Assembly (NCBI GenBank): GCA_903857865.1
Contig: CAIOGO010000004.1
Coordinates: 71,846 to 135,845 of the forward strand
Direction of reading: 5' to 3'
Origin: an uncultured bacterium
GTDB taxonomy: Bacteria; Bipolaricaulota; Bipolaricaulia; UBA7950; UBA9294
Length of the DNA: 64,000 nt
The position numbers were made by a program, and so were the translations under genes. Below are positions 15,310 to 39,940 of the stretch, in pieces (position 1 is the first letter of the stretch; the number at the start of each line of letters is the position of its first letter). The notes under the pieces were generated by a model. The model had not been told where the DNA came from. It ran no database searches and saw nothing but the letters and a program-made list of their open reading frames with translations.

Positions 15310-19299
<3,990 letters not shown>

Positions 19300-19415
19300 T
19301 CAACGGACGCGAGGGAAGGCGTTGCGCGTTCGAGGGATGTCTAGATTCCCCAGAGATGAGGCATAACCGGGACGTTGGAGGTTGTTCGGCGAACGCGAAC
19401 GTATGGAGGCATCGT

Positions 19416-19643
19416 ATGATGAAGAGACTCGTGGTTGTAGGGATGGTTGTTGCACTCCTCCTCGGCGTGGCTGTGAGCGTGCTTGCCGACCCGATTCACG
19501 TGGGTGGCGGGCCGAAGCTCACCAGCACCCCGATCCATGTCGGTGGCGGGCCAATGCTTCTGGGGTCCCCGATTCATGTCGGCGGGGGACCGCAGCTCAT
19601 GAGCGCGCCAATTCACGTCGGCGGGGGGCCATTGGCGGAGTAG
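19416..19643 (+). CDS. Secreted short protein with four PIHVGGGP repeats
   Basis: This 75-residue product is not a family I recognise. A typical Sec signal peptide (KR followed by about 17 hydrophobic residues, probable cleavage after VLA, residue 24) precedes a mature part made almost entirely of a 13-residue repeat. The units begin PIHVGGGP at residues 26, 39, 52 and 65 and have variable linkers (KLTST, MLLGS, QLMSA, ending LAE). There is no cysteine. GGAGG lies 6 nt before ATG 19416 and 9 nt before the adjacent ATG 19419. Regular His-Gly units could bind metal, assemble as a surface fibre, or be cut into identical peptides; none is shown. Confidence 0.75.
   Translation: MMKRLVVVGMVVALLLGVAVSVLADPIHVGGGPKLTSTPIHVGGGPMLLGSPIHVGGGPQLMSAPIHVGGGPLAE
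19491..19640 (+). repeat. Four tandem 39-nt coding repeats
   Basis: Units start at 19491, 19530, 19569 and 19608 (the last one shortened to 33 nt). Synonymous differences between copies, for example in the His, Val and Gly codons, show that the amino-acid pattern has been kept while bases diverged, which argues for selection on the protein. Confidence 0.8.
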
Positions 19644-19844
19644 TCTGGAAGCGTTCGGGCCTCGGTGAGGCCATAGAAGAGGATGTGAGGGTGGCGAGCG
19701 TGCTCGTCACCCTTGCCTTGTTTGGCGCAGCTGTAGGTTCTCGGGCGTCGCACGGTGACAGCGGGTCGGCTTGGAGGCAGAATCGTCTGTGCCGGACGCA
19801 CCACCGGGTGATGGGCGGAAGGGTGGCGCTGCGAGGAGAGTGGC

Positions 19845-20756
19845 GTGGTCAAAGGGTTGACGCTCGGAAAGGCTGACGAGGACGCGCAGAGGGCGGCGAA
19901 GCAGTCGTCGTCCGTTGAGCTTCTCGTGCAGCATCGAGCGCTCGAAGTGACGCGGCACCGAATCGCCGCTGGGAAGCACTTCTACCTTGACGAGGCGAGC
20001 GAGTGGTCGGGGTTCGAGTTCTTGTATGTGATTCGGGGCACGCTCACGCTCTCGAGCGGCGAGGGCAAGACGGCGGTCCATGAGGGCGAGTACCTCCACC
20101 ACCACGGCCTACCAGAGCGAGCATACTTCCGAGTTGATGAAGACCTCGAGCTGCTCATGGTTTCGTCCCCGCCGAGCTATCACCTGGTCAAGGACGAGAT
20201 CCAAGAGATCATGGCGCTGGCGCGATCCGTCGAAGAGAAGGACGAGGCGACGGAGGGCCATTGCCATCGACTTGAGCGTTTGGCCATCCGCACGGGGGAG
20301 CGACTGGGTCTGCCCGGGCAGCGGCTGATCGATCTCTCGTACGGCGCGTACCTGCACGATGTGGGCAAGGTGCGCGTGCCCGATGGCATCTTGAACAAGC
20401 CGGGCCGACTCACGGATGAGGAGTGGGTGGAGATGCGGCGCCACCCGGAGCACGGGGCGGCGATGCTCCGCGAGAAGAGCTTCCTCAGGGCGGCAGCCCA
20501 GATCGTCGTCAGCCATCACGAGAACTACGACGGAAGCGGCTACCCACATGGTCTGCGCGGCGAGGAAATTCCCATGGAGGCGCGCGTTGTCTCGGTCGTC
20601 GATGCGTACGACGCCATCACCTCGGAGCGGCCCTACCAAGTTGCGGGGGCGAAGTCCAAGGCGGTCCAGGAGCTGCGGCTAAACGCGGGGACGCAGTTCG
20701 ATCCGCGGGTCGTGCGGGCGTTCTTGTCGGTGATCGGGGAGGACGAGCTTGCGTAG
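19845..20756 (+). CDS. Cupin-HD-GYP protein, predicted c-di-GMP phosphodiesterase
   Basis: The 303-residue protein joins an N-terminal cupin domain (about residues 20-110, with YVIRGTLTLSSGEGK and HEGEYLHHHGLPERAYF) to an HD-GYP domain (about residues 135-300). Catalytic and signature residues are intact: HDVGKVRVPDGILNKPG and HHENYDGSGYP. HD-GYP enzymes hydrolyse cyclic di-GMP, so the cupin is a probable ligand or metal sensor controlling turnover. GTG 19845 follows GAGGAGAG. It overlaps the start of a 57-residue membrane protein by 8 nt. No diguanylate cyclase is in the window. Confidence 0.88.
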   Translation: MVKGLTLGKADEDAQRAAKQSSSVELLVQHRALEVTRHRIAAGKHFYLDEASEWSGFEFLYVIRGTLTLSSGEGKTAVHEGEYLHHHGLPERAYFRVDEDLELLMVSSPPSYHLVKDEIQEIMALARSVEEKDEATEGHCHRLERLAIRTGERLGLPGQRLIDLSYGAYLHDVGKVRVPDGILNKPGRLTDEEWVEMRRHPEHGAAMLREKSFLRAAAQIVVSHHENYDGSGYPHGLRGEEIPMEARVVSVVDAYDAITSERPYQVAGAKSKAVQELRLNAGTQFDPRVVRAFLSVIGEDELA

Positions 20757-39305: not shown

Positions 39306-39599
39306 ATGCAGACGACAGGGCCAGATCTCGTTGGCATCGAGAGGCAAGACCCTCGCGTCCTGGTCGATTGCAAAAGTGAGAAGCGGTGGCGTGATAATCA
39401 TCCACACGGTGGTGGAAGAACACCCACGAAGCAGCTAGTTGTGCGCGGGCTTGAACTCCTCAAGGAACTCGCCGGCGAGCGGTTTCGACGTGGCATCGTG
39501 TTGTACTCGGGGAGACAGTGTGTCCCGCTGGGGAAAGATCTGCACGCCCTCCCGATCGAATCGCTGTGGCGGATCAGAGCGCAGAACAGGCGCGCGTGA
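39306..39599 (+). pseudogene. C-terminal remnant of a second DUF4143 ATPase
   Basis: The frame encodes PDLVGIE near its start and LVVRGLELLKELAGERFRRG followed by IVLYSGRQCVPLGKDLHALP and ESLW. This is the characteristic end of DUF4143 ATPases. The ATPase domain and most of DUF4143 are missing and there is no ribosome site, so it is a gene fragment. Its last 70 nt are part of the 138-bp tandem duplication that follows. Confidence 0.7.
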
Positions 39600-39803
39600 C
39601 GCTCTCTCCGTCTCGATGCTCCGAGCGAGTGAAACACCAAGAATGAAGATTTGACCCCGCCGCCCCTGGGGAAAGACCTGTACGCTCTTCCGATCGAATC
39701 GCTGTGGCGGATCAGAGCGCGGAACAAGCGCACGCGACGCTTTCTCCGTCTCGATGCTCCGAGCGAGTGAAACACCGAAAGTGAAGATCTGACCCCGCCG
39801 CCC
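39528..39803 (+). repeat. Tandem duplication of a 138-bp unit
   Basis: 39528-39665 and 39666-39803 are two adjacent copies with few differences, each beginning CTGGGGAAAGA and ending GACCCCGCCGCCC. Each copy includes the last codons of the DUF4143 fragment and a short non-coding tail with CCGAGCGAGTGAAACACC. The arrangement looks like unequal recombination or element insertion. Confidence 0.85.
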
Positions 39804-39940
39804 CATTCCGCGGACACCTGACTCGCTCGTAGTGCATGCCCACAGGCGGCCCTGTACCTCGGCTCCTGCGAGTGTGTCAATGCAAGACCGGGCCCCGACG
39901 CTCCGACGGGAAGTGGAAGTGGCGCAACTCGAGGAGTCAC

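Follow-up and report, generated by a model that had tools for sequence, protein, structure and literature searches.

What does a small secreted protein with four copies of one short unit do in an uncultured bacterium, and what is its partner? The ORF lies at 19416–19643 on the forward strand of a 64,000-nucleotide stretch of DNA (the window), which comes from a Bipolaricaulota genome of 2.24 Mb (91% complete). Its translation is MMKRLVVVGMVVALLLGVAVSVLA-DPIHVGGGPKLTSTPIHVGGGPMLLGSPIHVGGGPQLMSAPIHVGGGPLAE, with a signal peptide to ..VSVLA followed by DPIHVGGGP-KLTST-PIHVGGGP-MLLGS-PIHVGGGP-QLMSA-PIHVGGGP-LAE, in which PIHVGGGP occurs four times with a 13-residue period. The locus contains the following features.

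15607–19155, −: PFOR, divergent neighbour; belongs to the family-conserved gene order, outside the pair
19405–19409, +: Shine-Dalgarno-like GGAGG, 6 bases 5′ of the ATG (sequence)
19416–19643, +: predicted multi-copy secreted peptide precursor, 75 aa (sequence, homologues and copy comparison)
19416–19487, +: predicted signal peptide, ~24 aa, likely cut between ..VLA and D (hydrophobic N-terminus with K/R, A-x-A-like end)
19491–19514, +: peptide copy 1, PIHVGGGP (translation and copy comparison)
19530–19553, +: peptide copy 2 (translation and copy comparison)
19569–19592, +: peptide copy 3 (translation and copy comparison)
19608–19631, +: peptide copy 4, near the C-terminus, with LAE after it (translation and copy comparison)
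19685–19716, +: terminator-like hairpin between precursor and partner gene, 14 pairs (consensus scan only)
19845–20756, +: partner gene, 303 aa, cupin (~1–115) and HD-GYP (~120–300), proposed receptor/effector (Pfam and Foldseek)
19989–19991, +: Asp49 of the partner, best-scoring covariation column against peptide residue 3 (suggestive only)

The precursor and its repeated motif

The ribosome site described in the initial annotation was found as GGAGG ahead of the ATG, and the precursors of relatives likewise have a GG-rich stretch ahead of their start codons. A second in-frame ATG at 19419 corresponds to the start position of the g13 relatives. The signal peptide is conserved in sequence among the homologues. 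Pairwise comparison of the four window copies over the seven core residues PIHVGGG gave 24 synonymous and 0 non-synonymous differences. The earlier reading of a signal peptide and four 13-residue repeats with synonymous divergence is confirmed. The initial annotation had named no known family, and the protein had no match above cut-off in Pfam, NCBIfam or PHROGs.

Elsewhere in the window, a 138-bp unit is present in two tandem copies with 90% matches (39528–39804).

Protein and profile searches in 100 Bipolaricaulota genomes detected the precursor in the window's family, with 22 genomes from eight genera and 3/3 congeners among them; a second gene in G014 and an extra ORF in G004 are additional copies beside this count. 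Named relatives found in a genome-contig search were mostly from Bipolaricaulota MAGs. Because homologues are present in all three congeners and family-wide, at the same position in the gene order, the window ORF is real, far beyond chance, and a chance ORF was ruled out. The initial annotation had called it a real, selected, secreted repeat product and proposed a search of related genomes with a comparison of repeat numbers. Since homologues were indeed present in close relatives, with the repeat number varying from two to five, the lack of homologues that would have counted against this view was not observed.

In the family, each precursor contains 2–5 units of the form P-[IV]-x-[VI]-G-G-x, the first of them immediately after the signal peptide and the last at the extreme C-terminus, except in g1, g13 and G032, in which 1–4 residues lie beyond the last unit. 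No constant cleavage site was seen around the internal copies of the family precursors. The unit is almost constant within a protein and varies between genera (PIHVGGG, PVHVGGG, PINVGGL, PINVGGT, PINVGGE, PIQVGGT, PIEVGGE, PIHVGGS, PVHVGGS, PVHIGGS and PIHVPGG), with a mean copy identity of 0.997 within proteins vs. 0.727 between representatives (0/20000 permutations). The between-copy differences summed over 23 genes were 305 synonymous vs. 5 non-synonymous (pN/pS 0.0065), for copies chosen by the motif pattern, by which degenerate or decayed copies may be missed. In addition, the serine of GGS is encoded by TCN in one copy and by AGY in another in G018, G009 and G014; therefore, amino-acid identity is selected and is not merely a trace of recent duplication. 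These comparisons show strong selection for identical copies within each protein, with a motif that shifts from genus to genus.

Two loci depart from the usual arrangement. In G014, an apparent tandem precursor pair spans two contig ends (L049:18033–18281 and L050:16095–16343); the signal peptides of the two genes have clearly diverged and the repeat motifs are identical, also in DNA, so a recent copy or conversion is likely. G004 has, between its MFS exporter gene and the usual precursor, a leaderless four-copy ORF of ~40 residues, VSKPINVGGTYSTPIDVGGNYSTPIDVAGDYSTPIDVGGK (L054:9492–9614, i.e. G004:C57:55492–55614), with a GTG start after an AAGGAGG-like site.

A linked cupin/HD-GYP gene

The gene order in the family is PFOR (reverse), an MFS exporter in some members, the precursor (forward), the cupin/HD-GYP gene (forward) and an ATPase (reverse). 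The divergent placement from PFOR that had been pointed out was confirmed, and PFOR was rejected as the partner, as it is common only to the gene order inside the family. The partner, missed at that stage, is the downstream cupin/HD-GYP gene at 19845–20756. Its orthologue is present in 23 family genomes with the precursor adjacent in 22/23, a count in which the linkage in G014 and G027 spans contig ends or partial contigs. Only G007 departs from this: its gene order is the same, with no intact precursor. Its partner gene (L100:3714–4628) shows an in-frame loss of ~31 residues, including the first HD-GYP histidine. Neither gene was found in the ten family genomes of genera g6, g8, g9 and g10.

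The gap between the precursor and the cupin/HD-GYP gene is ~22–30 bp in some genera and ~200–270 bp in others. In the window the genes are ~200 bp apart with the terminator-like hairpin between them, which was counted against the signalling reading; the control of the hairpin scan gave a mean of 0.4 terminator-like sites in shuffled sequence. Only g2, g3 and g4 have an EntS/MefA-like MFS gene between PFOR and the precursor (L042:10233–11531 and orthologues), and its product may serve as a peptide exporter.

Beyond the window's family, four other families have a few genomes with cupin/HD-GYP orthologues, at 39–52% identity. Several carry added C-terminal domains; in L102, L105, L106 and L107 these are GAF- and GGDEF-like by eye, so that synthesis and breakdown of c-di-GMP may be combined in one protein. 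Among the tested neighbours from the window's family, only the cupin/HD-GYP gene is common to these loci. Directly upstream of it lies a small signal-peptide protein with one motif copy at the C-terminus, ending in ...VTFDPIHVVGG (G062), ...ACFDPIHIGGSGG (G059), ...VEVDPIHVTK (G051), ...DNPISIGGSGQN (G048) or ...ECFDPINIID (G069); ...FDPIHIGGSGG is one of these endings, and G069 has in addition a tandem pair ending in ...FDPPTLIG and ...FDPPKLIG. Several of the single-motif proteins have a ~70-residue pro-domain in common, and a profile of them retrieved further proteins in G082 (...FDPIHVIGG, directly ahead of the cupin/HD-GYP fragment there) and G074 (...FDPIHVIGS, located at the end of a contig). 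The pair is adjacent in 22/23 family genomes and in six other Bipolaricaulota genomes, with measured gaps of ~20 to 270 bp.

A search for a signal-like N-terminus with a C-terminal P-x-x-V/I/L gave 30 ORFs in 476 kb of test loci, 29 of which adjoin the cupin/HD-GYP gene, and no candidate at 20 other HD-GYP loci of the phylum used as control (98.8 kb). No precursor ORF was recognisable beside the cupin/HD-GYP gene in G054 and at one of the two G048 loci, and in G039 the relevant DNA is masked. Overall, the pairing of the peptide gene with the cupin/HD-GYP gene persists across different genomic contexts, and other families hold a simpler form with one C-terminal copy.

Furthermore, a full-length cupin/HD-GYP gene is present on each of two Bacillota megaplasmids, with the gene of a small secreted protein behind it; this protein ends in ...VEVEIDPMTVH in Peptoclostridium acidaminophilum DSM 3953 and in ...QNVPVTLFN in Pontibacillus sp. 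ALD_SL1; both endings are weakly like the motif. No such cupin/HD-GYP protein was detected past 1e-12 in 289 non-Bipolaricaulota genomes, and Spo0A was found in 0/72 sampled outgroup genomes. A phage origin was rejected: viral contigs contained no relatives of precursor or partner, and PHROGs contained none of the window precursor. A "phage" HD-GYP match, MT837853, has a response-regulator-like N-terminus, no cupin and no peptide.

The partner matched HD_5 in Pfam (3.5e-39). Foldseek returned the HD-GYP structures 4mcw, 4r8z and 9rbz together with cupins, and the nearest solved sequences are HD-GYP phosphodiesterases. The structure model of the partner is of mediocre quality (pLDDT 70). H139, HD171-172, H200, HH224-225, GYP232-234 and D253 are invariant in 16 orthologues; the HD-GYP domain, with its metal ligands and GYP motif, is present. 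The partner is predicted to break down c-di-GMP; the window genome has nine GGDEF matches. The HxH metal motif of cupin motif 1 is absent in the family, in which the aligned segment reads W-x-G-F-E-F-x-Y. Neither a signal peptide nor a membrane segment was seen in the partner sequence, and no TPR domain was found by Pfam or fold.

Covariation between the partner and residue 3 of the peptide was also evaluated. Over the full set, the Asp49 column scored best of all columns: Asp49 is present in 20/20 partners of His-type peptides, plus G082, and absent in 9/10 partners of other peptide types, with G069 (DPINIID) not fitting the pattern. The cupin of G054 has Tyr in this column. Inside the family, cupin columns 92 and 118 tie with column 49, and their covariation is confounded by a possible single ancestral switch. 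Because the Asp49 pattern requires ~4 switches on the HD-domain tree, only two of them on well-supported branches, the Asp49/His3 covariation is not significant and is taken as a suggestive lead, not a result.

Peptide signalling and alternative readings

The ORF is probably the gene of a multi-copy peptide-pheromone precursor, the product of which would change c-di-GMP via the cupin/HD-GYP protein. The initial annotation had raised a precursor cut into near-identical peptides as its second guess, and this fits best, with processing as a predicted step. The signal would have the core P-I-H-V-G-G-G and probably one additional residue before it, as in DPIHVGG. After Sec export, cleavage by signal peptidase would expose the first copy, and the other copies may be freed by further proteolysis. 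The peptide could then be re-imported, for example by an oligopeptide permease (the window genome encodes four SBP_bac_5 uptake proteins), and bind the product of the adjacent gene, a cytoplasmic cupin/HD-GYP protein, at its cupin domain. Such binding would alter c-di-GMP phosphodiesterase activity and thereby a density- or kin-dependent behaviour. The signal peptide, the constrained identical units, their genus-wise changes, the single C-terminal unit elsewhere and the linked sensor/effector together fit the prediction for a peptide signal with a private receptor.

Alternatively, the product may stay uncut, as a small secreted or envelope repeat protein whose units dock one partner in adhesion, the envelope or a polymer scaffold, with the HD-GYP protein regulating the same surface lifestyle. 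The signal peptide and repeats are compatible with this, and the same unit pattern would arise if all units bound one fast-evolving partner. However, in other families the copy number is one and the motif sits at the very C-terminus, which suits a released peptide better; the mature protein is only ~35–80 residues long; and the sole linked gene that is independent of context encodes the protein without signal peptide or membrane segment. We therefore regard an uncut scaffold as unlikely.

A peptide antibiotic or modified peptide (a bacteriocin or RiPP-like multi-core precursor) that leaves the cell through the MFS protein and is regulated by the HD-GYP protein seems improbable. The EntS/MefA-like gene of g2, g3 and g4 and the leaderless four-copy ORF beside the MFS gene in G004 would suit it, whereas the MFS gene is absent at the locus in the window's genus and others, and all precursors except that one small ORF carry a Sec-type signal. 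Moreover, the core shows strong conservation, the neighbourhoods scanned contained no recognisable modification enzyme or immunity gene, and no NCBIfam RiPP model matched above cut-off.

More improbable still is an envelope regulator in which the C-terminal motif, as a tag for a protease or PDZ domain, governs signalling or degradation in the envelope upstream of c-di-GMP and no re-import takes place. The position of the motif at the extreme C-terminus in many members and the c-di-GMP-type enzyme as partner agree with such a tag, which nevertheless leaves the internal and N-terminal copies without a role and places the sensor-like cupin domain in a linked product that has no signal peptide or membrane segment. 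Finally, the initial suggestion that one His per unit binds metal or haem, in whose favour the regular spacing of four His-Val-Gly-Gly-Gly units in the window's protein speaks, was rejected because the ligand is not conserved: G006, G029, G023, G017 and G004 have Asn (three genomes), Gln or Glu in place of His in every copy, with the unit otherwise kept.

Relation to known systems

Read as a signalling pair, the locus resembles the RRNPPA systems of Bacillota (Rap-Phr, NprR-NprX, PlcR-PapR and AimR-AimP) in being a two-gene cassette of a small secreted propeptide beside a receptor-type gene, with a cytoplasmic receptor there and a cytoplasmic partner proposed here. RRNPPA propeptides adjoin the receptor gene and carry the pheromone at the C-terminus, some with up to six copies that are identical or nearly so (PMC9765709); here, a conserved motif lies at or near the C-terminus in all precursors, and the two Bacillota loci have the partner gene followed by the peptide gene, the same order as in RRNPPA. 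In contrast, the partner is a cupin plus HD-GYP protein with no TPR domain found, multiple copies are the rule in the window's family and the exception there, one copy directly follows the signal peptide, and the host is a member of the Bipolaricaulota. Since the defining TPR receptor is absent, the pair is not a member of RRNPPA.

The streptococcal pheromone SHP3-C8, DIIIIVGG, which acts through an Rgg receptor (PMC3150281), is likewise a short C-terminal peptide with Asp first, a hydrophobic middle and a Val-Gly-Gly end, comparable to DPIHVGG. SHP precursors are short, single-copy and PptAB-exported and have Rgg receptors, whereas the precursors here have a Sec-type signal peptide, and no HTH-TPR (Rgg-type) partner was found in the neighbourhood. 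The resemblance between these very short sequences is most likely convergence.

Yeast alpha-factor-type precursors are eukaryotic, are processed by Kex2/Ste13 at fixed spacer sites and signal through GPCR receptors (see also PMC5850478). No such spacer rule was seen in the Bipolaricaulota precursors. Both share a signal peptide with identical units that change together between species.

The partner resembles HD-GYP phosphodiesterases with sensor domains (4mcw, PA4781 4r8z and DvhD 9rbz) in its catalytic domain, ligands and GYP motif, and differs in having an N-terminal cupin as the sensor and a gene linked to a secreted peptide gene. We know of no solved HD-GYP relative that is paired with a peptide. 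The literature search, which covered few subscription journals, returned no paper with HVGGGP and none describing such precursors or the pairing of a peptide with a cupin/HD-GYP protein; judging from titles and abstracts, papers with both cupin and HD-GYP seem to contain them incidentally. In this uncultured phylum, the precursor and cupin/HD-GYP protein look like a pair for peptide-based signalling between cells that has not been described before.

More tentatively, and at somewhat less than even confidence, the pair may represent a new class in Bipolaricaulota and some Bacillota, in which a secreted peptide directly controls c-di-GMP via cupin/HD-GYP, multi-copy precursors are family-wide and dialects co-evolve with the cupin pocket. 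To our knowledge, peptide pheromones with cytoplasmic receptors have been described essentially from Bacillota, with TPR receptors. If the reading is true, a peptide and a one-protein c-di-GMP enzyme would constitute a new receptor class for peptide signals, with related pairs in the Bacillota isolates P. acidaminophilum DSM 3953 and Pontibacillus sp. ALD_SL1, and, in a deep-branching uncultured phylum, would link a population signal directly to c-di-GMP.
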